From: an uncultured Clostridia bacterium
GTDB taxonomy: Bacteria; Bacillota; Clostridia; Christensenellales; UBA1242
Direction: 5' to 3'
Assembly (NCBI GenBank): GCA_944381205.1
Contig: CALWKG010000006.1
Location: 1 to 55,912 of the forward strand
DNA: 55,912 nt
A program made the translations under genes and the position numbers. A model generated the notes under the pieces. That model was not told where the DNA came from and searched no databases. It saw only the letters and a program-made list of their open reading frames with translations. Positions 1 through 25,525 of this stretch are shown in pieces; the first letter of the stretch is position 1; the number at the start of each line of letters is the position of its first letter.

Positions 1-120
1 AGGGTGGCAGTTGCAATAGTGGCATCACTAGTACTATTGTGGTTACTCGTATGGCTTGCATCGTCGTTACCAGCACTTCTAAACAGACAGCCGTTTAGTG
101 CAGTTACAAGCGCTGCTTAG
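1..120 (+). CDS. Type IV secretion pilin-like protein, 3' fragment
   Basis: The 3' end of a gene cut by the window edge. It is read in frame 1 and stops with TAG at 118-120. The 39 visible residues are a hydrophobic helix (VAVAIVASLVLLWLLVWLA) followed by a short polar tail ending SAVTSAA. They match the C-terminus of the next gene almost residue for residue, and the first 77 nt are identical to 411-487. It is therefore the upstream member of a tandem pilin array. Family: small two-helix pilins of Gram-positive type IV secretion systems (T4SS_pilin/VirB2-like), inferred from the complete neighbouring copy. Confidence 0.75.
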   Translation, partial: RVAVAIVASLVLLWLLVWLASSLPALLNRQPFSAVTSAA

Positions 121-138
121 CTTTTTAGTAATGTAAAA

Positions 139-167
139 TTGTAAGTTTTTTCTGTTTTGGTTATAAT
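139..167 (+). promoter_or_regulatory. Promoter of pilin gene 2
   Basis: TTGTAA at 139-144, 17-nt spacer, TATAAT at 162-167. The Shine-Dalgarno GGAGGT lies at 175-180, so the predicted leader is only about 15 nt. The promoter lies between two tandem pilin genes, so the second copy can be transcribed independently. Confidence 0.65.
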
Positions 168-188
168 TTAATTTGGAGGTAATAATAT

Positions 189-530
189 ATGTTTAATTTA
201 TTTGGTGGGCCTTTTGCGAATGCTATTTCAAACATCTCGGGTGATGCTTTTAGTTGGCTAGTACCTATTGTTTCAGTTTTAGATAATTTAATTATCCCTG
301 TAACAATAATTGTTGCAATAGCAGGTGCGATATGGATAATTATCCTAGGTGTTAGGCTTGCTAGGGCGGAAACTTCTGATAAAGCCAAAGAAGCCAAAGG
401 TGCTTTAATTAGGGTGGCAGTTGCAATAGTGGCATCACTAGTACTATTGTGGTTACTCGTATGGCTTGCATCGTCGTTACCAGCACTCGTAGGAAGACAA
501 CCATTTAGTGCGATTACAAGTAATGCTTAA
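189..530 (+). CDS. Type IV secretion system pilin-like protein (complete copy)
   Basis: A 113-aa protein with two hydrophobic segments (about residues 34-57 and 75-97). They are joined by a short charged loop, ARAETSDKAKEAKG, and followed by a short polar tail. There is no cleavable signal peptide. This size and layout fit the T4SS_pilin/VirB2-TrbC group in Gram-positive conjugation-type systems, whose products form the pilus or channel in the membrane. The ATG at 189 follows GGAGGT at 175-180 with 8 nt spacing. The neighbours are two paralogues, a VirB6-like and a VirB4-like gene, which supports the role. The 3' half has very recent sequence identity with the upstream copy (77 nt identical). 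Confidence 0.7.
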   Translation: MFNLFGGPFANAISNISGDAFSWLVPIVSVLDNLIIPVTIIVAIAGAIWIIILGVRLARAETSDKAKEAKGALIRVAVAIVASLVLLWLLVWLASSLPALVGRQPFSAITSNA

Positions 531-573
531 TTGACTCAATAGAGTTTTACTTAAAAAAATTAAAATTGTTTTT

Positions 574-612
574 AGCAAGAGCCTAGTAAAAGTACTAGGC
601 TGTTTTGCTGTG
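574..612 (+). terminator. Rho-independent terminator after pilin gene 2
   Basis: GCCTAGTA (581-588), a 4-nt loop and TACTAGGC (593-600) form a perfect 8-bp stem. Flanking AGCA/TGCT-like bases extend it, and a short T-rich run TGTTTTG follows. Confidence 0.7.
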
Positions 613-796
613 TGCAAGTTTTATATTAACCTTAATAGGTGTGTTAGGTTTAAAGATATAAAAAATTTTTCTTTATTTTTTAAAATTTTTAAAGTTGCAT
701 TGCAGTTTTATTGATTATAAGCAAATTTTTAGCGATAAGTAGATAAATTATTTAACTTTTAGCAGGATAAAAAAATAGAAATTTCCGTTATTTTAT

Positions 797-824
797 TTGA
801 AAATTATTATAAATATGCTAAAAT
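797..824 (+). promoter_or_regulatory. Candidate promoter of the third pilin-like gene
   Basis: TTGAAA at 797-802, 16-nt spacer, TAAAAT at 819-824. Transcription would start about 30 nt before the TTG start codon at 861. Confidence 0.4.
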
Positions 825-860
825 TATTTAAACTATTTAGTATAAAAGGGGATTTATAAG

Positions 861-1262
861 TTGTTTTATTTACTTAATGCTGACGCGTCAAGCAGTAGTG
901 AGGCATACGAGCACCTTTCTGGAATTTTTAACTATCACAATGTCGCGGGTTACGAATACTTAAAACCAATTATTAATTTTTTAAATCAGTACATTATACC
1001 AATTTCCGTTACTTTGCTTGTAATGGGTGCTTTTCTTGCTATTTTCCTTGGGATAGCAATGGCTAGGGCAGAAGATTCCAACAAGGCTGCCGATTTAAAA
1101 AAACGTATGTGGGGGGTAATAGTCGCAGTTTTAGTTGTGTTGGCACTAATTTGGTTATTAGGTTGGTTATTCTCGGCTCTGCCTACAATAGTTAGTACTT
1201 TTAGGGACCCTGTTATGAGCAATTTGCCTGGTGGGCTTGAAGGCTCTTCCAGTTCAAGTTAA
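861..1262 (+). CDS. Pilin-like protein, divergent third copy
   Basis: A 133-aa protein with two hydrophobic helices (about residues 47-68 and 87-109) around a charged loop, ARAEDSNKAADLKKR. That loop clearly aligns with the ARAETSDKAKEAKG loop of the preceding pilins. It has a longer N-terminus (about 30 extra residues) and a Ser-rich C-terminus (GGLEGSSSSS). The start codon is TTG at 861, preceded by AAAAGGGG at 844-851. It is the third, diverged pilin paralogue and may be a minor or tip subunit. That role is inference; the two-helix layout and conserved loop are seen. Confidence 0.65.
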   Translation: MFYLLNADASSSSEAYEHLSGIFNYHNVAGYEYLKPIINFLNQYIIPISVTLLVMGAFLAIFLGIAMARAEDSNKAADLKKRMWGVIVAVLVVLALIWLLGWLFSALPTIVSTFRDPVMSNLPGGLEGSSSSS

Positions 1263-1390
1263 TTTATTTAACTTGTAATTTTTTGAAGCAAAATAATAAA
1301 TTTCTTATTTTTTGTAAAAAAATAGTTCGTTTAAAAGGTAAATTTTTTCTTAAAGGAATAATTTATTATTGTTTAAAAGGAGAAAAAGGA

Positions 1391-3337
1391 GTGCAAAACA
1401 AGTTAAAATTTAATAATAATTTTAATTTAAGTTTTAAAAAAGATAAAAAACAACACTTTTTTTTGTCCTTTTTTAGCCTTTATTTAGTCTTAGTTTGTGT
1501 TATTTTGCCAGTCTTTTCTTTTACCGCCTGTGCCGAAAATGGTACATTTTACGTAGGTATAATGGCAACGCGTAATAACCTAGACATTGGTACCGAACAA
1601 AGCGCTAATTTTAGGGCTAAAATAAATGTATTTAGTCAAGAAATTCTCCGTGCAATGGAAGACCGTTTTGGGTTTTACGAACTTGATATATCCCGAAGGG
1701 TTAAAGATAATTTGGATATTATCTATGATTTAAAGGATAGTGAAGCGGAAGAACTTAACTCATATTTTGATGAATTTGGATATTTTACATATTGTGAGTA
1801 TAGGAGTGATTTGGGTGTTAAAAATAATGTTTTGGTACTTTCTAATAAAGAACTAAGTAAGACTTTTATAGAAGATAATATTGTTCAATTTAACCCTGAG
1901 AAAACAGGTACTTTTACCTGCTCTTTGGATTACGGATTTTGGACGTCTGAGGAGATGACTCGCCTTAGTAATGTAGATTCAGAAACAAAAGTGGAAGAAA
2001 ATGAAGTTCTACCAACAGACAACGTATACAAGTTTAGGATAGGACTCTTTGATTCTTCCAACACAAAAGCCCTTGTTTTTTTGGGTAACAAAGTAGGCGG
2101 AAGGTCTTTTGCGGAAATTTCTCAGGTAAAGGACTTTATAACAAAATTTTACAACTCAGTGTACGGTTCTATTGAAAGATTTGTTACCATTCCTAGTACT
2201 TCCATTAAGGATAGACCAGTGGCTTTTAACATAAATCATTGGATTTATAGTTTTGCTAGTAGAGGTGAAGATAGCGGAAACATCGTAAATTATTACTATA
2301 AAGACCTTAGTGTTTTCATTTGTAGATATCTTTTAACGGGTGACACTGATCCCGAAAGTTTAAAAGATATAATTTTTGATAACAGGAACACTATGTACGA
2401 CGAATACTTAAAGGCAGAGCAAAATTTATATCAAGGGGAATATGTTACTACAACAACAGATTATCGAGACTGGTTTGTTGAAGCATCTTGTCAATTTTTA
2501 TTTGGGGTAAGTAGCCTTGGCGACGCGTCCGAAGGTGGGGTGGCTGATGCCACGCAGGCATTGTATCAGGAGATGGTTGGCGACAATTTTATAAAAGACG
2601 AAAAACTTAATAATGACTACTTTAAAATATTTTTATCCGTTGTTCAAGCAAACAGCACCTTTGAAGGCGGTGACTATAATTTTGAAAACTCGCCAGTCTA
2701 TTTTTATGATAATTTTAAGTATAATGGAAAAGATGATTTAGTGTCTATGAAATTGAATAAGAGCATAATGGCTGGTTTTGCACCTGTAAGAGCATTGGTT
2801 TTTCAGTCTTGGGATATGAGTGACACACTGGACGCAGTTGTTGTTAATTTTGAATATTATCAAGAAGGCAAAACTGACGAAGAAACACAGGCAAATAAGG
2901 AAAGGGCTTGGGAAATTCTCAAAAATTACAACTTTATCGTGCGATATAGTGTAATAAGTAATGTCGGGACACCGCAAAGAGCCCAAAGTGTTATTTTAGA
3001 TAAGGAACAATTTGTAGACCAAGGGGAATTAGAAGACGGGGTACTATTTTTAGATTTGTATACTATTTTTGAAACCCATTTTAAAGACCAGTTTAAAGGA
3101 TATTCTAGTGAAGGCTTTTTTCTAAGAGATTTAAATACAGAAGCATACGAAGGTTTTGAGCCTTTTGACGGAAACTTTTATTCCACAACCTTTAATTCAG
3201 GGTCTATGGGAGTTGGGGTTTATTATGATGGTATGGTAAGAGATAACTCTATTCCAGAGTATTATTTCGAAATAATTTTTGCCGCCCCGGGTTACAATCA
3301 AGTGTTAAATTTTAAAATTACAGACATTTTTTTGTAA
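1391..3337 (+). CDS. Unrecognised secreted or lipid-anchored protein of the type IV secretion locus
   Basis: I place the start at GTG 1391, because AAGGAG (1377-1382) sits 8 nt upstream. An in-frame TTG at 1283 would add 36 residues but has no ribosome site. The 648-aa product has a positively charged N-terminus and a hydrophobic stretch (about residues 23-45). It then has FTAC with Cys47, which could be a lipobox (the Phe at -3 is atypical), followed by a long soluble, acidic, aromatic-rich domain without further membrane helices. I recognise no family. Lying between the pilins and the VirB6-like gene, it is probably an exported component of the apparatus. In Gram-positive systems that slot is often a VirB8-like or surface subunit, but no such fold can be claimed here. 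Confidence 0.6.
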   Translation: MQNKLKFNNNFNLSFKKDKKQHFFLSFFSLYLVLVCVILPVFSFTACAENGTFYVGIMATRNNLDIGTEQSANFRAKINVFSQEILRAMEDRFGFYELDISRRVKDNLDIIYDLKDSEAEELNSYFDEFGYFTYCEYRSDLGVKNNVLVLSNKELSKTFIEDNIVQFNPEKTGTFTCSLDYGFWTSEEMTRLSNVDSETKVEENEVLPTDNVYKFRIGLFDSSNTKALVFLGNKVGGRSFAEISQVKDFITKFYNSVYGSIERFVTIPSTSIKDRPVAFNINHWIYSFASRGEDSGNIVNYYYKDLSVFICRYLLTGDTDPESLKDIIFDNRNTMYDEYLKAEQNLYQGEYVTTTTDYRDWFVEASCQFLFGVSSLGDASEGGVADATQALYQEMVGDNFIKDEKLNNDYFKIFLSVVQANSTFEGGDYNFENSPVYFYDNFKYNGKDDLVSMKLNKSIMAGFAPVRALVFQSWDMSDTLDAVVVNFEYYQEGKTDEETQANKERAWEILKNYNFIVRYSVISNVGTPQRAQSVILDKEQFVDQGELEDGVLFLDLYTIFETHFKDQFKGYSSEGFFLRDLNTEAYEGFEPFDGNFYSTTFNSGSMGVGVYYDGMVRDNSIPEYYFEIIFAAPGYNQVLNFKITDIFL

Positions 3338-3363
3338 AAAGGCATACAAAAAGGTTAAAAATA

Positions 3364-3393
3364 TTGTACAAAAATAAATTAACTTGTTATAAT
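3364..3393 (+). promoter_or_regulatory. Promoter of the VirB6-like gene
   Basis: TTGTAC at 3364-3369, 18-nt spacer, TATAAT at 3388-3393. The leader would be about 50 nt and ends in the strong Shine-Dalgarno TAAGGAGG at 3435-3442. Confidence 0.6.
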
Positions 3394-3451
3394 TTGTTTA
3401 TACTACTTTAAACATTAAGACAATCAAAATTACCTAAGGAGGAAAGTAACA

Positions 3452-6307
3452 GTGTGGGATAACCTAAAAGCGATAGGACATTGGATAGATGCTATTGTTG
3501 ATTTCTTTTTTCTACTGTTTTATTTTCTTTTTAGGGCAATTTCATATATTGTTTCTTTTGTGGAAGCACTTTTTAGACGTCTTGCAGGGCTAGATTCAAT
3601 GAACATTAACGGTGTTGAAGTCGGTGGCAGTAGTGGTACAGATTTAGTTTATGGTTTGATTTTAAACAAAAGTGTTCAAAATTTATTTTGGTCAATTCTT
3701 GGTTTTTCAATAATTTTATTGGTTATTTTAACTATTATTGCACTCGTAAAGTCAGAGTTTACACTCGACTTAAAAGCGAGTGCAAAAGGTCCTATCATTG
3801 GTAGGGCTTTAAAGGCTTTAATAAACTTTTTCTTGGTGCCTATTTTTACCATAATTGCCATACTTGGTGTAAATATGCTCACACAAGCCTTAGGAGAATT
3901 GTTTATTGGCAACAATGGTGGCGGAATTGTGGCTAAGTGCTTTTTAGTGGGGGCTCATAATGCCAACCGACTGCGTCTAAACGATAGCGAGAGTACGCAA
4001 CTTTATGAGTATTTGCATAGCGGGCAGTTCCTAAATTATAGTGAAACGGGTTCTGATTCAGCACAAGGGGAAAACCCCTTTAAAGATTTTGCCACGGCGG
4101 AAGAAATGGCAAAGTTTATAGATGAGTGTTTTACCAGCGATACCCATTCAGAAGAAAGTTCAACTCAAGGTTCAACAGGGCTAATAAATCCAATTTACTC
4201 GGTAGATTATAGAAAACTTGACGATGCTTCTGCATTTTATGATTATCTAGATGACGGACATTCTTATGCCCCTTGGCATACTTTGATGTGGGGATATCCC
4301 ACAAAGCCGTCTAATTCTGGCAATTTGCCTATGTACGATACAACTGCATTTAATTATTACTACAACCCACGAGAGTTTGATTTTATCCTTGCAATAGGCA
4401 CAGCAGTAATTATTTCTTGGAATTTATTAACCGTTTGTTTGGCTCTCCTTAAACGTGCTTTCGAATTAGTTATTCTGTTTGTCTTATCCCCAGCAATGAT
4501 TTCTATTGCTCCGCTTGATAATGGCAACGCATTAGAATCTTGGCGGAAGGAAGTTTCTAAGCGAGCGCTGGCAATTATAGGCCCACTGTTTGCTTATAAT
4601 ATCTTCTTTATGTTTGTAGACGTCTTGGGAGATGTCGAAATATTTACAGTTACCACAGAAGGTGTTTTAAGTTTTGCCCAAGGTGGATTAATTGCTGTAT
4701 TTAATATATTCTTCCAATTAATCGTACTTATTGTGGCTCTTGGACTTTTAAAAACCGCATCGCAAATGATTAGTAGTTTACTTGGGATAGAAGATTTAGT
4801 CGCCAGCGGTGGTCAAATCGCAGGCAAGGCAGTTTCTACGGCTACAAAGACTGCAATGGTGGCAACAGGTGCCGGCGCTATGGTTGCGGGTACTGGTTTT
4901 AAGGGTGTAGCGGCTATTGCGAAAGGTGCTGTGAGAACTCCTGGTCGAATAAAAGACTGGAGCGCATATAGAAAACTCAAAAATCAAAGTGTAGAGAACG
5001 ATGAGTATAAACAGGCTAAGGGAGAATATAAAAATTATGACTCTCAATTATGGCTGGCAAATCAAGGGTCTATAAATTTGTCAGACGAAGAAATAAAAGA
5101 GTTGGGACAAAAAAGAAGCGAAGCCTTAGCACGTATGAAAGCGGCAAAGCAAAAAATAAAAACTGGAAACCTTACAAATAAAGAACAAGAAAGTCGTAAA
5201 GCAGATTTGAAAAGTAAAATAGATGCTATTAAGCATGGTGATTCATCTGTTGAAATGGACCCTGATGATGTCCCATATCTTGAAGAAGAGTACTCTAAGG
5301 CAGATAAAGAATCTGCAATGTATTCTCATAGAGTAAAGGAAGCCTTGGCAAAGAAAAACCAGTCAAAAGCTGCTTTTAGAAGAAGTTTTGTTGAAGAGTT
5401 TGGTAGTGATAAGAAAAACTCAGTCTTATCAAAAGCAAGTAAGGGTTTTAAAAATAAAGTAGAAGAAAGTTCAAAAGAGGGTATCCTTAGTAAAGTTACA
5501 CCAGCAAGGGTTGTTGCAGAAAAACTAGCAGGTGGTTTCGGTACTTTTTCAAATGTTTTAAATGCTGGTTTAAGGGATAATTATTCTAGGATTTATAGTG
5601 GTATTTCTGGTGTTGTTGGGGGGGATTCTGCTGCGGGTCAGGTTATGGGTATGTTGTTTACCGGCAGCGGAAGAAAAGCCCTTTGGCAAAGCGAAAGAGA
5701 AAAGAAAAGAGCGGACGACTCCAAGTCTGAAAGTGATGCAAAAAAAGCAGCCAAAGCAGATGAGCAGGCAAGAGCCGAATATAGAAAAGAATCCGGCGAC
5801 AGTGAACAACAAAGGGCTTATCAAGAAGAAAAAGTTAATATGATTAATGCCGCAAAATTACACGTTGCAAGTACAGAAGGGTTTAAAGACGAATATAACG
5901 AATTAATGAAAAACTTTGCCAAAGCAAATCTAGAAGGGAATAAAAAAGAAATAAAAAATGCAAAAGATAAACTTGAAACTTTCGAAATAGAAAATAGGGT
6001 TAATGAAAAAGCGCAAAGAGTTGTTGCATCACTTGACCAAGAAGGTGGCGAAAAATTATTTGAACAACTGCAAAATATTTATGCTACTCAACTTATGGAA
6101 GCCAACAAAAAAGCATTTAGCGAGGCAGGTGTAAAACTTAAAGAAGGAACAAAGGTTGATGCCAATATTAACTTTGATAGGTTAGAAAGGGCTATTACTA
6201 CAACTTTAAGTGATAAACTTGATACATTATCTAGTAAAATGCAACAGGTTGTTGAGGGTATAGGTTCTCTTAAAGAAGTTTTAAAACCACCTGAAAACAA
6301 TAATTAA
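3452..6307 (+). CDS. VirB6/TrbL-like inner-membrane channel protein with long charged C-terminal tail
   Basis: A 951-aa protein starting at GTG 3452, 9 nt after TAAGGAGG. Hydrophobic segments lie near residues 12-45, 75-100 and 120-145. A polar loop of about 160 residues follows (probably extracellular), then helices near 310-350, 370-395 and 408-435. This is the polytopic layout of VirB6/TrbL proteins, which line the substrate path of type IV systems. After a Gly/Ala-rich segment (about 465-490), the last ~460 residues are highly charged and Lys/Glu/Gln-rich. They are predicted to be largely helical coiled coil in the cytoplasm. Typical TrbL proteins are 300-600 aa, so the tail is unusual. 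Family assignment rests on topology and on the VirB4 neighbour. Confidence 0.65.
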   Translation: MWDNLKAIGHWIDAIVDFFFLLFYFLFRAISYIVSFVEALFRRLAGLDSMNINGVEVGGSSGTDLVYGLILNKSVQNLFWSILGFSIILLVILTIIALVKSEFTLDLKASAKGPIIGRALKALINFFLVPIFTIIAILGVNMLTQALGELFIGNNGGGIVAKCFLVGAHNANRLRLNDSESTQLYEYLHSGQFLNYSETGSDSAQGENPFKDFATAEEMAKFIDECFTSDTHSEESSTQGSTGLINPIYSVDYRKLDDASAFYDYLDDGHSYAPWHTLMWGYPTKPSNSGNLPMYDTTAFNYYYNPREFDFILAIGTAVIISWNLLTVCLALLKRAFELVILFVLSPAMISIAPLDNGNALESWRKEVSKRALAIIGPLFAYNIFFMFVDVLGDVEIFTVTTEGVLSFAQGGLIAVFNIFFQLIVLIVALGLLKTASQMISSLLGIEDLVASGGQIAGKAVSTATKTAMVATGAGAMVAGTGFKGVAAIAKGAVRTPGRIKDWSAYRKLKNQSVENDEYKQAKGEYKNYDSQLWLANQGSINLSDEEIKELGQKRSEALARMKAAKQKIKTGNLTNKEQESRKADLKSKIDAIKHGDSSVEMDPDDVPYLEEEYSKADKESAMYSHRVKEALAKKNQSKAAFRRSFVEEFGSDKKNSVLSKASKGFKNKVEESSKEGILSKVTPARVVAEKLAGGFGTFSNVLNAGLRDNYSRIYSGISGVVGGDSAAGQVMGMLFTGSGRKALWQSEREKKRADDSKSESDAKKAAKADEQARAEYRKESGDSEQQRAYQEEKVNMINAAKLHVASTEGFKDEYNELMKNFAKANLEGNKKEIKNAKDKLETFEIENRVNEKAQRVVASLDQEGGEKLFEQLQNIYATQLMEANKKAFSEAGVKLKEGTKVDANINFDRLERAITTTLSDKLDTLSSKMQQVVEGIGSLKEVLKPPENNN

Positions 6308-6372
6308 TTTAATAAAGATTTAACTAATCACTTGCATTAAAGGCAAAGAATTGTTTTTTGTAAAAATCACAT

Positions 6373-6386
6373 TAGTTTATAAACTA
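6373..6386. promoter_or_regulatory. 14-bp perfect palindrome upstream of the VirB4 gene
   Basis: TAGTTTATAAACTA is a perfect 7+7 palindrome ending 6 nt before the AAGGGG Shine-Dalgarno of the ATPase gene. It contains a TATAAA core, so it could be an operator overlapping a -10 box. No regulator is identified. Confidence 0.35.
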
Positions 6387-6399
6387 AAAAAGGGGAATT

Positions 6400-9024
6400 A
6401 TGAGATACATTCCAAGAAAAACAAAAGTTAGAATGGAATTTTTTAAGGGTATCACATTAGCGGATATTCTCGTAGCGGCAATAGGAGTTACGGGAATAGT
6501 CCTGTTTGCCCTTAGTACGTTGCCGTATAATTGGTACTTTGCTTTGGGTTGGGGTTGTTTGGTTGCAATGTTATTTATGCCAATAGAAGAAGATTTAAGA
6601 CTTTATGGCTCTTTGGGGCTATTTATAAGGTTTATCGCTTTTAAGAAAAAGTATAACAAATCTGATATTGACAAAAAGACAGGCAGATTAAAAATTAGAG
6701 ATATAGTCCCTTATGAAGCAATTATTCAGGATAAAATTCTAGATTTTAAGGAATATTACGCAATGGTTATTGGTATAAAGCCAATAGAATTTGGGCTACT
6801 AAATGACCATAAGCAAGAACTTGTTATCAGGTGCTTTGCAGATGCTATTAGAAGAATGAGTAATGACCAGTCGGCTAGTATTATTAAAGTTAGTAAGGCT
6901 ATGGTCTTTGACGACTATATAACCGGCGAAGATAAAAAATTTGACGACCTTATGGAGTTACAATACGAAGGAGAAATGACCGAACAAGAAATTGAGAGTA
7001 GGTCTAGCGTTTTTGAGGCTCGTGTTAGTCAATTAAATAATTTTAATAAAAACGAAAAGGTTTATAGGGATTTTTTCTACATAGTTGTCTACGATAAGGA
7101 TAAGGAAATGCTAGAAACCACAATTGATGGTATGGTTAGTACCCTTGGAAATTCAGTAGTTCCAATAGTATCACATAAGGTGATAGGTAAGGAGTTAGCA
7201 GCTTTCCTTAGGGCAAATTACGGTAGATATTTTGACGAAAGAGATTTAGAAACCACCCCAAGAGACCAATATCTTAACTGGGCAGTGCCAGAAAACATTT
7301 CGTTTAAAACTACAAAAACTGTCATAGATGGTCATACCTATAAGTCTTTTGTTTTAACCGATTATCCTTTGCAGGTAGGCAATGCGTGGGGTGCTCCCTT
7401 TTTCTTGATAGAAGGGGCAAATGTTTGCGTTAATATAAAGGCAATTCCAAAGGCTCTTGGTGAAAAACGTATTGATAAGTCCATTATCGAAATGGAAGGA
7501 AAAATGGCAAATATTTATAAGAGTAGTAAAAGGATTGAAAACGAAATCCAACTCAAAACTCTTAGGGATTTGTTGCAAATGTTAAAGGCAGATAACGAGC
7601 AGTTGTACGAAGTAAATACTCACATTATGTGCGAAGATTATGCAAAAAAGGAAGTCAGGGCAGTACTAAAACAACGGGGCTATAAGTATTCAGAGATGTT
7701 TGGTAGACAAGTAGATGCTTTTGTTAGCAGGAACGTATCCGCCTTGGATACAATTAAACAACACAAAAGGGATATCCCGACCACAACCCTTGCGTCTATT
7801 TTTCCGTTTATATCGGGGGCTTTGCTTGATGAAAAGGGCTTTTATATAGGATATAACGAGTACCCAGTGTTTATTGATTTGTTTAAAAGAGATAAAGAAA
7901 GGGCTAATAGTAATATTATGATTATTGGTAAGTCTGGCGGTGGTAAATCTTATGCTACAAAAACCCTTCTTACAAATCTTGCTTGTGATAATACTAAGGT
8001 TTTCGTTTTGGACCCGGAAGATGAGTACACACCATTGTCATACAATATGCAGGGTATGGTTTTGGACGTAGGTTCTTCTCAAAAGGGTAGGTTTAACCCT
8101 TTCCATATTATGACTACCCTTGACGCGGACGAAGGCGGTAGCGACGACTCCTATTCCACGCACTTGCAGTTTTTGGAAGAATTTTTTAGCATTATTTTGC
8201 CGGGTATGCCGTCCGAAGCCTTTGAAACTTTAAATGCCTTAACAATTGAAATCTATCGCAAAAAGGGGATTAATTCTCAAACTCCATTAACAAAGTTAAA
8301 GCCAGAAGATTTTCCAATTTTTGACGATTTGTATAATCTAACTAAGGAAAAGTTGAGCAAGGAAAAGGACGAATACCATAGAAGAACACTTCAAACTGTG
8401 GAAACATATATCTCAAAGTTTGCCACTGGGGGAAGAAATAGTAACTTGTGGAATGGTCCTATGTCTATTGCCACAAAGGAAAATTTTATTACCTTTAATT
8501 TTAGGTCATTGCTCGCTAATAGAAACGAAGTTATAGCAAATGCTCAAATGTTGCTTGTTTTTAAGTATTTGGATAACGAAATCATTAAAAATAAGGACTT
8601 TAACGATAAGTATAAGGCAAATAGACATATCGTTGTAGCAGTTGACGAAGCGCACGTTTTTATTAACCCAAAAAGACCTATCGCTTTGGAATTTATGGCG
8701 CAAATGGCAAAACGTATTCGTAAATACGGCGGTATGCAGATTGTTATTACCCAAAATATTAAGGACTTTGTCGGTAGTCAGGAAATTCAACGTCAGTCTA
8801 CCGCCATTATTAATGCTAGTCAGTATTCGTTTATCTTCTCGCTTGCACCTAACGATATTACAGACTTGGTAGAACTATATCGTAACGCAGGTGAAATTAA
8901 CCAAGAAGAGCAAGACAATATCTTAACCGCAGGGGTTGGTCAGGCTTTCTTAATAACCGGGGCTTTGTCTAGAACGTCTGTAAAAATCGAAGCAAACGAA
9001 GCCGTTGTCAGACTATTTTCATAG
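6400..9024 (+). CDS. VirB4-family type IV secretion ATPase with N-terminal membrane hairpin
   Basis: An 874-aa protein. Two hydrophobic segments near residues 18-60 resemble the PrgI/TrbD-type membrane piece that is often fused to, or encoded beside, Gram-positive VirB4. The central region is soluble. Walker A, GKSGGGKS, is at about residues 510-517, and Walker B, VVAVDEAH, is near 745-752. A later stretch, IVITQNIKDF, fits the VirB4/HerA motor fold. VirB4 hexamers power pilus assembly and substrate transfer at the inner membrane. Start ATG 6400 follows AAAAGGGG. It is the strongest marker that this is a type IV secretion-type locus. No VirD4 coupling ATPase is present in the window. Confidence 0.9.
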   Translation: MRYIPRKTKVRMEFFKGITLADILVAAIGVTGIVLFALSTLPYNWYFALGWGCLVAMLFMPIEEDLRLYGSLGLFIRFIAFKKKYNKSDIDKKTGRLKIRDIVPYEAIIQDKILDFKEYYAMVIGIKPIEFGLLNDHKQELVIRCFADAIRRMSNDQSASIIKVSKAMVFDDYITGEDKKFDDLMELQYEGEMTEQEIESRSSVFEARVSQLNNFNKNEKVYRDFFYIVVYDKDKEMLETTIDGMVSTLGNSVVPIVSHKVIGKELAAFLRANYGRYFDERDLETTPRDQYLNWAVPENISFKTTKTVIDGHTYKSFVLTDYPLQVGNAWGAPFFLIEGANVCVNIKAIPKALGEKRIDKSIIEMEGKMANIYKSSKRIENEIQLKTLRDLLQMLKADNEQLYEVNTHIMCEDYAKKEVRAVLKQRGYKYSEMFGRQVDAFVSRNVSALDTIKQHKRDIPTTTLASIFPFISGALLDEKGFYIGYNEYPVFIDLFKRDKERANSNIMIIGKSGGGKSYATKTLLTNLACDNTKVFVLDPEDEYTPLSYNMQGMVLDVGSSQKGRFNPFHIMTTLDADEGGSDDSYSTHLQFLEEFFSIILPGMPSEAFETLNALTIEIYRKKGINSQTPLTKLKPEDFPIFDDLYNLTKEKLSKEKDEYHRRTLQTVETYISKFATGGRNSNLWNGPMSIATKENFITFNFRSLLANRNEVIANAQMLLVFKYLDNEIIKNKDFNDKYKANRHIVVAVDEAHVFINPKRPIALEFMAQMAKRIRKYGGMQIVITQNIKDFVGSQEIQRQSTAIINASQYSFIFSLAPNDITDLVELYRNAGEINQEEQDNILTAGVGQAFLITGALSRTSVKIEANEAVVRLFS

Positions 9025-9302
9025 TAGTATCAAAAATAATAAAATCCCTGATTGCAAATTTAAATTTTTTTGCTGTCTTTTAAAAATTTTATTAAAAATT
9101 TCTCCCGTTAACACAATAAAAACGGTTTGTAGTACTTGATTTGGGAAAAAATAAAAATTTACTAATTTTATAAAGTTTTTTACCGCTACATCATAAAAAT
9201 TTTGTATTAAAAGTTATTGTTTCCATTGTATAAAAAATTTTGTTATCAGGTAGAAATCTTTGATTAAGATTTATAAAAGAATACTAAAAATTTTAGTTTT
9301 TT
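9025..9302. other. Non-coding AT-rich spacer after the VirB4 gene
   Basis: No open frame with a ribosome site, no RNA gene and no clear promoter is seen here. It leads into the terminator at 9303-9350 and the T-tract array. Confidence 0.5.
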
Positions 9303-9350
9303 AAGGATAAAAATCACAGGTAAGCCATGTATTTTTTATCCTTTTTTTAT
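9303..9350 (+). terminator. Terminator of the secretion operon
   Basis: AAGGATAAAAA (9303-9313) pairs with TTTTTATCCTT (9333-9343) across a ~19-nt loop, and T-rich sequence follows. It lies 280 nt downstream of the VirB4 stop codon. Confidence 0.6.
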
Positions 9351-9681
9351 TTATTTTTATGTGCTTTTATTAGTTTTTTTACTCATTTTTATATGCTATT
9401 TGCCTAATTATTTGTATTTTTTTACCTGTTTTTTCTACGTTTTTTACTTAAATTTTACGTAATTTTACCTTATTTTTACTCATTTTTTACTTAATTTTTA
9501 CCAATAATTTAAGTATTTTTAAGTGTTTTTTACTAATTTTTATATATTTTTTACCTATTTTTTAAGCATTTTTTATCAATTTTTATACGTCTTTTTACTT
9601 CTTTTTTAAAAAAAATTTAGATAAAAACTTATTAAATTTGCGTATAAATTAATAAAAAATCTATAAAAATTAGGGTAAAAA
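9332..9681. repeat. Helically phased T-tract/A-tract array (predicted curved DNA)
   Basis: On the plus strand, T-runs of mostly 4-7 nt begin at 9332, 9342, 9354, 9365, 9374, 9386, 9417, 9429, 9440, 9453, 9463, 9473, 9483, 9495, 9516, 9526, 9537, 9547, 9558, 9569, 9580, 9592 and 9602. Weak T3 runs fall at 9399 and 9508. The mean step is about 10.8 bp, close to one helical turn. Most runs end in A then C or T, giving a loose unit TTTTTAC plus about 4 nt. From 9608 the runs switch to A-tracts (9608, 9623, 9634, 9646, 9654, 9665, 9677) with similar spacing. Phased A/T-tracts are known to bend DNA. What binds here is not known. Confidence 0.8.
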
Positions 9682-9752
9682 GGGATTTTATAATCTGTAA
9701 AATATAACAAAAATATGGGATATTTTTGGGTATAAATTTAATATAAATTATG

Positions 9753-9823: not shown

Positions 9824-9852
9824 TTGAAATTTATTTTGTTTTGTGATAGTAT
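9824..9852 (+). promoter_or_regulatory. Promoter of the 716-aa gene operon
   Basis: TTGAAA at 9824-9829, 17-nt spacer, TAGTAT at 9847-9852. The leader would be about 22 nt, with AAGGAG at 9865-9870. Confidence 0.6.
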
Positions 9853-9880: not shown

Positions 9881-12031
9881 ATGGCAGGTGTACAAGATGA
9901 ATTAAGGGTAGACGAATTTAATAATTTAGTAAAAAGAGATATCCTTAATGCTTATTCACTTAAAGTTACAGGTAAAGATATAGACAAAATTGTGAGTATT
10001 AACGATTTGGATTCTCTTAATCTTTTTCCATTAGGGTATTTGGATAGTAAGTCCAGCGAAGAGCAGGCAGAGATTTTGAAAGTTTTTACCGATTGCGTAG
10101 AAAAAAATAATTTTAGGGATTTTGTCAGCCTTATAGAAGTAAATTTTCCAGAAATCTCTAATCGAAGCATTGAAGGTTATGAAGAAGCATTTAGAAGCCT
10201 ATTAGAAAAGACAAGAAATAAAGAAAATTTGACTTATTCTGAACTTTTTAAAGGAATAAAAAACGGCAATTCTAAGGTTTTAAATGTGGCAAGGAATATT
10301 TTAAGCAAAACTATTTTTAGGGGCTTGCGTGGCAAGTATGGGGAAGAAAGGGATTCTTCTAGTGCTAAACAAGTTTTGAAATATTTGTCTGGACTTTATT
10401 ATGTAAACGATAAATTTGAATCAAATGCCAATGCTTTTGAGCACATTAGTTCTGTAACTAGGCATTACTTGTTGGGCGAAAAATTTAGCCAACTTAATAA
10501 GGAAAGGCTTGAAAATATGGGCATACGTGTGAGTACAATTAATAACATATTAAATGAAGACACAATTAAATTTCTTGCAAGCATAGATAGTGATTTTGAA
10601 AAAAATGATATTAGGGATATAGAAAGGGCAGTAAAAATTGACGAGGAGATAACTTCTATTGTTGCTACTCCATACATAAGAAATTTATTAAATCTTCCAA
10701 CTGGGGTTAGAAAGATAACAAAAAATGAAGATGGGGAAACTGAGATATATACTATTAATAAGTTTAAAGGCATTAATGAATTAACGGGTAATGATTTGGT
10801 TGCTTTTGAAAAGATGCTTCAAAGAAGAAGTGACGACACAAGGGAAGACATAGTTGTAAGGCTTAAAAGTTTTTGTAAAGTAATAGAATCGGCAACTAAT
10901 AATTTGTATGAAAATTATAGCGATAAATTAAACTTAGATGATGAAGGAAAGTTAGTTGTTTCAAAAGAAGAACTTCAATCTAGATTAGTATCTTTCCTTG
11001 GTCAGTCTGGCGCCTTTGCAAAGGAAAATGTTGAAGACTTTACTTATGCGGCCCTTGATACGATAGTAAACTATGAAACAATTTTAAGTGGTGTATTTAA
11101 AGAGGAAGAATACGAAAAGATCCGTTCTCATAAGGAAAACAAGAAAGACGAAGATAATAATCTTTCTACTGCTTATGTAAAATTAGAAGGCAAGGTTTAC
11201 TCTTTGCCAGACGTGAAAATAGAAGAAGATGCAAATCATAAATTCCACTTAGCAAAAGACCAAGATATAGAATTACTAAAAAGGCAATTATCAATAGCAT
11301 ACGGAAAATCTTTTGATAAAGTTACAATAGAAGATTTTAAATTTGGGACAAATGTCTTGGCGGAAGAATTCCTTGGCGAAATTGAGAAACAAAAAATAAA
11401 GGAAGCACAAGAAAGAGAAACCAAGCAAACGCAGGAAAATGCAAATGAGCAAGATTCTAGCAGTAGTGCAAGCGAAGATAACTCAGGTTCGGAAAATAAT
11501 ACGGTAGCAGAAAACTCAAAGCAAAACAATTCTCAAAAAAGTGCATTTGTGCCACTAGATATGGTCAATGGAGTTTCGGTTTTTACAGGTAGTGACATTT
11601 ACTTAAAGGCTTTAACTGAGGCAAGAAAAAGAGTGAGAGAAGCCATTTTATCGGGGCAGGCGGAATTTGTAAAACCTCAGGTAACAAGTACTGGAACTCA
11701 AATGGGGGAAAAAGATTCTGAGCAACCTGAACAAAGAGCAGAAAAAAGAGAAGAGGTAAAGCCAGTAGTAAAAAACAATAAAAGGGTTAAATTAAGTTAT
11801 TGCGGAAATGCCTATGTAGATAGTTCTAATAGAATATGGGCTCTTAATGAAGATGGGTCACTTGGAGATGTGTATTTCGCTAAAAACCATCAGTGGTATA
11901 CTCTAAACAATAAAAGAAGAAAGGAATATTACAAAGTTAGGGAACAAGAAGATAAAGCAAGGGAAAATGCTAATAAGGATTTAGGCGATTTAAAACAAGA
12001 TGACGGTCGGGAAGAAGAACATTCAATGTAA
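9881..12031 (+). CDS. Unrecognised large cytoplasmic protein downstream of the secretion genes
   Basis: Start ATG 9881 is chosen because AAGGAG lies 10 nt upstream. An in-frame TTG at 9818 overlaps the promoter. The 716-aa product has no signal peptide and no membrane helix, and is rich in Glu, Lys and Asn. Residues 1-525 look helical and folded. A low-complexity linker rich in Gln, Ser, Asn and Glu spans roughly 510-555. Two small conserved-looking segments follow: about 560-605, and a Tyr/Trp-containing one near 640-685 with NRIWALNEDGSLGDVYFA. No family is recognised. Position suggests a substrate, regulator or accessory factor of the type IV apparatus; this is inference only. Confidence 0.7.
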   Translation: MAGVQDELRVDEFNNLVKRDILNAYSLKVTGKDIDKIVSINDLDSLNLFPLGYLDSKSSEEQAEILKVFTDCVEKNNFRDFVSLIEVNFPEISNRSIEGYEEAFRSLLEKTRNKENLTYSELFKGIKNGNSKVLNVARNILSKTIFRGLRGKYGEERDSSSAKQVLKYLSGLYYVNDKFESNANAFEHISSVTRHYLLGEKFSQLNKERLENMGIRVSTINNILNEDTIKFLASIDSDFEKNDIRDIERAVKIDEEITSIVATPYIRNLLNLPTGVRKITKNEDGETEIYTINKFKGINELTGNDLVAFEKMLQRRSDDTREDIVVRLKSFCKVIESATNNLYENYSDKLNLDDEGKLVVSKEELQSRLVSFLGQSGAFAKENVEDFTYAALDTIVNYETILSGVFKEEEYEKIRSHKENKKDEDNNLSTAYVKLEGKVYSLPDVKIEEDANHKFHLAKDQDIELLKRQLSIAYGKSFDKVTIEDFKFGTNVLAEEFLGEIEKQKIKEAQERETKQTQENANEQDSSSSASEDNSGSENNTVAENSKQNNSQKSAFVPLDMVNGVSVFTGSDIYLKALTEARKRVREAILSGQAEFVKPQVTSTGTQMGEKDSEQPEQRAEKREEVKPVVKNNKRVKLSYCGNAYVDSSNRIWALNEDGSLGDVYFAKNHQWYTLNNKRRKEYYKVREQEDKARENANKDLGDLKQDDGREEEHSM

Positions 12032-22277: not shown

Positions 22278-22338
22278 AATCTCCAATTAGATTGTAGCAC
22301 ATTTTAGATTATTTTGTAAATAGCAGTGAAAAATTTTC

Positions 22339-22367
22339 TTTACTATTTTAGGCAAAAGGTATATCAT
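22339..22367 (+). promoter_or_regulatory. Promoter of the permease gene (leaderless)
   Basis: TTTACT at 22339-22344, 17-nt spacer, TATCAT at 22362-22367, then 6 nt to ATG 22374. No Shine-Dalgarno. Confidence 0.5.
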
Positions 22368-22373
22368 TTTTGT

Positions 22374-23330
22374 ATGTTTGATGTGGTTTTACATACAATT
22401 TTACATTCTTTATTAGACGCACTAAAAACTTTGCCTATTATATTTGTTTGTTATCTAGTAATAGAGTTATTGGAAGAAAAAATTCTTACTAAATACAAGA
22501 CAAATAAATTTTTAAAAAGTAAATTTGCTCCTGTTTTAAGTGCAAGTTTTGGGATTATACCCCAATGTGGATTTTCGGTAGTAGCAACCGATTTATATAG
22601 CAAAAAATTAATAACACTCGGCTCTCTTATGGCAATTTATTTGGCTACTAGTGATGAGGCTCTACCGATATTGCTATCTACTCCTAACAGATATTTAGAT
22701 TTATTGTTGATTATTGGGATAAAATTTGTTTATGCTGTTATTATAGGATTATTAATAGACGCAATTTTTTCTAGAAAAAAACATATAAACACGGCAGAAA
22801 ACTCACAAGCGCTAGAAGATAAGCCGATAGATGAAATTTCGCAAAATAATACAACAAAAACAACTGCGGAAGATGAAACTAAAAAAGAAGAGTTTGACAT
22901 TCACGGCTGTTGTAATCACGACTTAAAGCACAAGAATAAAAAACTGTCGCATTTATTTTTACACCCGTTGTTACATTCTCTTAAAATTTTCGCATTTATA
23001 TTTGTTATTAACATAATATTTGGATTATTAATAGAGTTTGTCGGAGAAGACGCAATATCGAACTTTATGACGTCAACAGGATTTTTTGAGCCGTTTATAG
23101 TTGCATTGGTAGGACTTATACCAAACTGTGCCGCGTCTGTTATAATAACCGAACTGTTTTTGATTGGTGGAATATCTCTTGGTTCAGTTATAGCGGGGCT
23201 TTGTGTAAACTCTGGAATTGCACTTATTTTACTTTTTAGATTAAATAAAAATATAAAGGAAAATATATTAATATTAGTGTCTTTGTATCTTTTGGGAGTA
23301 GTGCTTGGAGTGGTGATAAATTTGTTTTAA
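22374..23330 (+). CDS. ArsP_2-type putative heavy-metal/manganese exporter
   Basis: 318 aa from ATG 22374; an upstream in-frame GTG at 22326 is not supported by a ribosome site. Two membrane halves of about four to five helices each flank a central cytoplasmic loop. The loop is charged and ends in a Cys/His cluster (HGCCNHDLKHK, about residues 178-188) that could bind metal. Each half has a matching motif: FGIIPQCGFSVVATDLYSKK in the first and LIPNCAASVIITELFLIGG in the second. This fits the ArsP_2/10-TM putative exporter family. Substrate unknown. Confidence 0.65.
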   Translation: MFDVVLHTILHSLLDALKTLPIIFVCYLVIELLEEKILTKYKTNKFLKSKFAPVLSASFGIIPQCGFSVVATDLYSKKLITLGSLMAIYLATSDEALPILLSTPNRYLDLLLIIGIKFVYAVIIGLLIDAIFSRKKHINTAENSQALEDKPIDEISQNNTTKTTAEDETKKEEFDIHGCCNHDLKHKNKKLSHLFLHPLLHSLKIFAFIFVINIIFGLLIEFVGEDAISNFMTSTGFFEPFIVALVGLIPNCAASVIITELFLIGGISLGSVIAGLCVNSGIALILLFRLNKNIKENILILVSLYLLGVVLGVVINLF

Positions 23331-25238: not shown

Positions 25239-25313
25239 TCCTCGATAGCTCAACGGTAGAGCACTCGGCTGTTAACCGATAGGTTGTTGGTTCGAATCCG
25301 ACTCGGGGAGCCA
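25239..25313 (+). tRNA. tRNA-Asn (GTT)
   Basis: A complete cloverleaf can be drawn. The acceptor TCCTCGA (25239-25245) pairs with TCGGGGA (25303-25309) with one G-U. The D-arm is GCTC/GAGC. The anticodon loop CTGTTAA has GTT at 25271-25273. The T-arm contains GGTTCGAATCC. The discriminator is G, and CCA (25311-25313) is encoded. Pair 27-43 (C-T) is a mismatch. Confidence 0.95.
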
Positions 25314-25525
25314 AGATAGGACTGCGAAAGCGGTCCTTTTTTGCGAGTCGGAGAGAAACAACAACCGTAGTAAGAACCGAAGGGCAAGCGAAGACGGGTT
25401 CTTCTAGGTAAAGCAAGGTTCGAATCCGACTCGGGGAGCCAAGATAGGACTGCGAAAGTGGTCCTTTTTTTGCGAGTCGGAGAGAAGCAACAACCGTAGT
25501 AAGAACCGAAGGGCAAGCGAAGACG
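25289..25525 (+). repeat. Tandem duplication of the tRNA-Asn 3' half with its terminator
   Basis: Copy 1 (25289-25396) and copy 2 (25417-25525) have a 128-nt period and differ at only a few bases. Each contains the tRNA T-arm and acceptor 3' side with CCA, a GAAA-loop terminator and a downstream flank. Copy 2 thus has a tRNA 3' fragment (25417-25441) without a 5' half. The flank also carries segments complementary to the tRNA: CGAGTCGGA (25344-25352) against TCCGACTCG (25297-25305), and AACAACC (25360-25366) against GGTTGTT (25282-25288). Confidence 0.85.
25318..25342 (+). terminator. tRNA-Asn terminator (copy 1)
   Basis: AGGACTGC, GAAA tetraloop, GCGGTCCT, then a T6 run. An almost identical hairpin is repeated 128 nt downstream, about 25446-25471. 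Confidence 0.85.

Follow-up and report, generated by a model that had tools for sequence, protein, structure and literature searches.

A phased tract array next to a VirB4-type gene

The intergenic gap behind a gene for a VirB4-type ATPase of a type IV secretion system (T4SS) contains a long run of regularly spaced T- and A-tracts, which raises the question of whether this array serves the secretion genes or acts more generally. The window, i.e., the whole stretch of 55,912 nucleotides that was analysed, is contig C6 of a 998,863-base assembly with 31 contigs and 94% completeness. The features around the array are as follows.

6400..9024, + strand: VirB4-type T4SS ATPase, 874 aa, left neighbour of the array; kept in every same-genus and same-family genome sampled
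9040..9700, no strand: approximate lineage-specific stretch, of which about 9040-9550 is without recognisable counterpart in relatives (gap comparison)
9332..9607, + strand: T-tract array of 23 T4-T7 runs on a 10.79-bp lattice over 25 turns, residual SD 0.51 bp (tract positions, Fourier analysis, lattice fit)
9608..9681, + strand: A-tract continuation of five A5-A8 runs that keep to the phase of the T lattice, displaced upstream by about 1 bp (phase analysis)
9824..9852, + strand: candidate sigma-70-like promoter of the downstream gene, TTGAAA-17-TAGTAT with TG before the -10 (consensus match only)
9881..12031, + strand: ORF of unknown function, right neighbour, with ATG at 9881 and the longest frame from 9818; no Pfam match (ORF list, Pfam scan)

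The 23 T4+ runs (4-7 nt) between 9332 and 9607 have a mean step of 10.8 bp. Nearly all centre-to-centre steps are 10-12 bp, and two wider gaps, of 31-32 and 21 bp, are the positions of weak tracts. The Fourier power of these runs at 10.8 bp was 21.0 of a possible 23, compared with a maximum of 9.6 in 2000 dinucleotide shuffles, and none of 2000 run/spacer permutations reached the observed value. Five A4+ runs follow at 9608-9681, and the seven A-tracts within 9325-9720 share the phase of the T lattice, with a coherence of 0.85 and an offset of -0.8 bp. The stretch 9332-9681 is thus made of A/T runs phased at the helical period beyond chance. The preliminary description had reported about 350 bp of phased tracts, T-tracts first and then similarly spaced A-tracts up to 9681, and had proposed a Fourier comparison with shuffled sequence. 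Its coordinates and run counts were accurate, no shuffled sequence gave an equally strong peak at 10.8 bp, and the spacing is real and stronger than it had claimed. Two observations were absent from that description: about ten like arrays lie in other intergenic sites of the same genome, and the equivalent gene junction in relatives is without the array.

Absence of the array from the same junctions in relatives

The T4SS genes left of the array were found in all same-genus and same-family genomes sampled, yet a T-array in the gap after VirB4 was found at none of 38 relatives' VirB4 loci, including those with 91-94% identical VirB4; one distant relative among these loci has an A-run of six tracts. 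In this genome the gap measures 793 bp; for the three closest relatives (VirB4 identity 91-94%) the range is 170-337 bp. Three other junctions with arrays were compared. At dapA/dapB, this genome has a 242-bp gap that holds an array, and the gaps of genus relatives are mostly 57-173 bp long and array-free; the exception is one relative whose 358-bp gap shows weak phasing only. The murF/ddl gap of this genome measures 335 bp and holds a 21-tract array; that of most relatives is array-free at 85-283 bp, and one relative has an 8-tract run of period 10.0. An array also occupies the junction between rsmA and a gene for a 361-aa protein, two genes that are neighbours in relatives; of the nine relatives compared, eight have no array at this locus and the last has only an incoherent 5-tract run. 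Between-species conservation of the arrays was found at none of the four junctions examined. Array presence is lineage-specific, and the array is independent of the T4SS. A T4SS-specific function was rejected because relatives lack the array at the same junction. The preliminary description had tied the array to type IV secretion, and had named loss of phase in close relatives with the same gene order as evidence against its reading; the absence of the array in relatives with the same T4SS genes goes against a locus-specific role.

The VirB4-type T4SS operon (window 1-9024) is itself maintained across the whole family of ~1-Mb genomes. The named records among the VirB4 relatives were mostly uncultured Clostridia and Christensenella-like gut genomes. 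No relaxase family was matched among the 19 window ORFs scanned, and the operon is possibly a domesticated secretion system. Elsewhere in the window, tRNA-Asn lies at 25239-25313, and its 3' end starts a 129-bp tandem duplication (25289-25525, 97% identical), possibly an integration-site remnant.

The lineage-specific presence at four junctions would also suit a MITE- or REP-like mobile repeat that had spread by insertion into numerous intergenic gaps, and a 14-nt inverted repeat flanks 9036-9694. However, this inverted repeat (at 9036/9681) was found at none of the other arrays searched, so we treated it as chance and rejected a MITE, and the arrays share little sequence beyond their phasing. 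Insertion of a mobile repeat is very unlikely.

A family of arrays across the genome

Like arrays were located by blastn of the whole genome with the window array, followed by reading of the stretches around the matches. These stretches, together with small contigs, came to about 432 kb, making the count of eleven a lower bound. Long coherent arrays of 8-28 tracts, essentially all intergenic, were found at at least eleven sites, approximately counted:

C6, 9.3 kb (the window array)
C10/C28, one array over two contig ends
C15
C5, 23.6 kb
C5, 57.0 kb
C3, 48.4-49.0 kb
C2, 46.2 kb
C2, 94.0 kb
C9, 28.5 kb
C19, 2.8 kb
C8, 34.4 kb

The density is about one site per 90 kb in a ~1-Mb genome. The neighbours are mostly housekeeping genes (RsmA, DapA/DapB, MurF-like/Ddl, YajC, dUTPase, peptidase U32). 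The main result is this family of lattice-locked arrays across the genome, which extends the known A-tract periodicity to discrete, extreme elements.

The largest array region (C3:48402-49022) spans ~600 bp in several blocks upstream of a gene for a giant Big_2-domain surface protein. At the rsmA/361-aa gene junction, two contigs end within one array (C10:1-208 and C28:3-268) with similar but different unit series, suggesting that the assembly broke at the array and that length variants may coexist. Two further runs, at C4:56.1 kb and C1:68.9 kb, were dropped as arrays; they lie inside ORFs and have other periods (11.2 and 11.5 bp). In the window, seven in-phase T-tracts with a 10.8-bp period (22302-22402) span the start of an ArsP_2-like ORF at 22326.

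The array gaps are convergent, divergent and co-directional, and some lie within presumed operons (dapA/dapB, murF/ddl). In co-directional gaps the T-rich strand is the coding strand in some and the template strand in others. This mixed orientation relative to genes fits a DNA-level rather than an RNA-level role. An RNA-level function as a U-tract terminator was rejected on the mixed orientation, the lack of a stem-loop terminator and a promoter count not above shuffles; Rfam gave no match other than tRNA.

The same gene contexts bear on local transcription control, in which upstream curved DNA would stimulate or silence the next gene as an enhancer, an UP-like element or a nucleoid-protein silencer. 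Phased A-tracts upstream of promoters act so elsewhere, as in the Mannheimia lkt repeats (PMC2697988) and C. perfringens plc (as cited in PMC2697988), and the candidate promoter lies ~145 bp downstream of the A-tracts. Against this, the arrays occur in gaps of all three kinds with either strand T-rich, a sequence similar to the candidate promoter is retained in relatives without the array, and the promoter count was not above shuffles. A consistent position just upstream of a promoter (UP-like, UCS) was not found, contexts and orientation being mixed, and the array sites gave no positional support for a silencer or enhancer. We consider local transcription control improbable.

Lattice, tract exchange and spacers

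Three tests indicate what the arrays preserve. The first is the lattice, which was fitted in 11 arrays with the C10 and C28 contig ends counted apart. The fitted periods were non-integer, 10.64-10.85 bp with a median of 10.78, and tract positions were locked to the lattice across 13-30 turns. The variance of tract positions showed no increase from lag 1 (0.74 bp2) to lag 16 (0.73), whereas a random-walk null gives 2.06 at lag 16, and successive steps were anticorrelated (autocorrelation -0.46). When the period was set off 10.8, arrays of at least 10 tracts vanished from the stretches read, save in bands overlapping or aliasing 10.8.

The second test is the exchange of tracts. A- and T-tracts share one 10.8-bp helical lattice, irrespective of the strand on which the A's lie. 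A-tracts in place of T-tracts were displaced by -1.75 bp (upstream) from the midpoint of the flanking T-tracts, with 31 of 33 offsets negative (p = 1.5e-4 against a null restricted to available positions); this pool included two runs later placed in or near ORFs only where the T-A-T spacing fitted. T-tracts in the same position, used as a control, had a mean offset of 0.0. The displacement is close to the curvature optimum of a wedge model, about -2, and in that model such a shift would hold the bend in plane, with A- and T-tracts placed so that their bends add up. Such an offset is not expected of a directional protein site.

The third test is the spacers. Their identity was 0.44 between distant units of one array and 0.42 between arrays. 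Identical spacers were shared by 23% of adjacent units, compared with 3% of distant units, and repeated adjacent spacers included ATCTA (four times), CACCG (three times) and GCTG (three times). Local duplication thus occurs, and old units diverge yet keep their phase. Some units are products of local tandem duplication, and part of the structure is mutational. Taken together, the three tests give good support to the conclusion that the arrays preserve curvature rather than a repeated word.

The duplications raise the possibility of a neutral minisatellite, in which an ~11-bp T-rich unit has spread by slippage and tandem duplication and the phasing is a by-product of unit length. The frequent identity of adjacent spacers agrees with this, as do the different unit contents of the C10 and C28 ends inside one rsmA array, which suggest length variants, and the sporadic exact 11-bp T5 tandem repeats in other genomes. 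However, the period is non-integer and locked over 13-30 turns without drift, there are no arrays of other unit lengths in the stretches read, A-tracts replace T-tracts at a bend-preserving offset, and phase persists between distant units that are no more alike than units of different arrays. A neutral minisatellite accounts for the local duplications, not for the lattice or the offset, and as a full explanation it is unlikely.

The spacers and the tract exchange also bear on oriented protein-binding repeats, i.e., iterons, a centromere or the transfer origin of a T4SS element. The repeated unit of T5-7 with A/C-containing sequence and the closeness to VirB4 had favoured this reading, and the preliminary description had likened TTTTTAC plus ~4 nt to an iteron. 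That likeness is not supported, as the spacers are not conserved, A- and T-tracts are interchangeable and the arrays occupy about eleven loci. About ten more arrays lie at unrelated, mostly housekeeping chromosomal gaps in either orientation, contrary to the suggested centromere or replication origin. The transfer origin fails on the same dispersal, on the lack of a relaxase family among the 19 ORFs scanned and on the absence of the array beside VirB4 in all relatives examined. Oriented binding repeats are extremely unlikely.

Modelled shape of the arrays

A4T4 repeats are bent and T4A4 repeats are straight, and this behaviour was used to set the sign in an AA/TT wedge model with AA roll and tilt. 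Absolute angles from these wedge values are rough, and contrasts are more reliable. In this model, the end-to-end distance of 9330-9608 was 0.20 of the contour with the helical repeat set to 10.85 bp, compared with 0.86 for shuffles at 10.5. The predicted summed bend was ~500 degrees for the window array and ~600 for longer arrays; arrays of 200-320 bp would have a one-sense bend of ~360-600 degrees in total, i.e., about one to one and two-thirds turns. In model scans of the window, the array ranked first for curvature in three of four settings, and in the fourth (280-bp windows, repeat 10.5) it was level with a region near 46.27 kb. The strong bending proposed earlier is borne out by the model, which ranks the array with the window's most curved DNA, and by the bend-preserving shift at which A- and T-tracts swap. 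The best-fitting helical repeat was 10.7-10.9 bp, ~2-3% underwound, as in negatively supercoiled DNA. The phase lock, the tract exchange at a bend-preserving offset, the lineage specificity, the intergenic placement and the independence from the T4SS are probably the outcome of selection for curvature, acting on an underwound helix.

Distribution in other genomes

A three-tract pattern gave 165 matches at period 10-12 and 22 at 14-16 in this genome. Other members of the order were enriched (103/5, 138/45, 116/29 and 160/18), and many others were near parity. A stringent four-tract pattern matched 53 times in this genome. Of 248 other genomes from the phylum, 222 had no match, and the maximum was 7, these being an exact 11-bp tandem repeat. 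A member of the order with 50% GC has a weaker T-array with G+C-rich spacers and a coherence of 0.63. Outside the arrays, the intergenic DNA of this genome, like that of its relatives, showed only the usual weak 10-11 bp signal. A possible early stage of such arrays was observed in an unrelated member of the phylum, where (TTTTTATGTGT)n forms a perfect 11-bp tandem repeat (5614-5705 of contig C2 in that genome).

No match to HU (PF00216) was found in this assembly, and nearly all same-genus relatives have one. HU-negative genomes lean to more phased tracts, but the tests were inconsistent (p 0.01-0.17) and the second-ranked genome has HU. Synteny also suggests that the HU gene lies just past the end of contig C26, and HU loss is therefore not claimed as a driver.

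Proposed role of the arrays

We regard the arrays, with about even confidence, as lineage-specific, curvature-selected curved-DNA elements that would organise the chromosome by pinning plectonemes or by being wrapped by a nucleoid protein or topoisomerase. The cellular role, pinning or wrapping, is less certain than the selection for curvature. Arrays probably originate as a few phased tracts; tandem duplication of ~11-bp units would account for part of their growth, after which selection would keep them in phase. Acting through DNA shape, an array would fix plectonemes (supercoiled loops) by their tips or, alternatively, offer a ready-made wrapping surface to a nucleoid protein or topoisomerase, and about one site per 90 kb would thereby help to organise the chromosome. 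The lack of between-species conservation at the four junctions speaks against an organiser role, as it would be odd for an essential organiser.

Related structures are known from other systems. The bent DNA of kinetoplast minicircles has many in-phase A-tracts within a few hundred bp and is strongly curved, with one bend per minicircle. Unlike it, the present arrays are dispersed on a bacterial chromosome, have more turns and mix T- and A-tracts. In prokaryotes, ~11-bp A-tract periodicity and clusters have been described (Tong and Mrazek, PMC3940949), including an intergenic periodicity in E. coli (PMC516772), and a contribution of A-tract curvature to compaction of the nucleoid has been proposed for bacteria in general (PMC3940949; PMC516772). 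The present arrays resemble these in their phased A/T runs and similar period, and the E. coli signal is likewise described as concentrated in noncoding DNA. However, that periodicity is statistical with short clusters, whereas here up to 28 tracts per gap and up to 30 turns occur at about eleven discrete places. The C. elegans periodic An/Tn clusters (PATCs; PMC7725773) are also long noncoding stretches whose An/Tn runs follow the helical phase, but they are eukaryotic and counter germline transgene silencing, a context that does not exist here. The Mannheimia leukotoxin promoter repeats are helically phased A-tract tandem units that are thought to curve DNA and vary in number between strains (PMC2697988); they comprise two to three units at one promoter, in contrast to ~8-28 tracts at about eleven sites that are not promoter-linked. 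The predicted mechanism is that of Kim et al. 2018 (PMC6301789), in which intrinsic curvature sets the location of supercoil tips. Pinning of plectonemes by curvature was shown there in vitro for other sequences and at promoters, and for the present arrays it is a prediction.

A wider proposal is more tentative, and we hold it as possible rather than probable. Some lineages of Christensenella-like reduced Clostridia may evolve dispersed, discrete, superhelix-coding arrays of 200-300 bp, selected over their whole length for one bend on an underwound lattice. These would serve as built-in anchors for supercoils or as nucleosome-like wrapping sites, in place of nucleoid proteins or in support of them, and would arise afresh at different gaps in each species.

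The chromosomal function of bacterial A-tract periodicity is a long-standing question, because the periodicity usually gives a weak and diffuse signal. In this genome, a small number of strong, discrete, lineage-specific elements carry it, and their lattice can be read. Array-free species provide natural controls, and the arrays can be dephased or placed in single-molecule assays. Furthermore, if the locked period reflects the helical repeat in the cell, the arrays would record the supercoiling density under which this lineage evolved.
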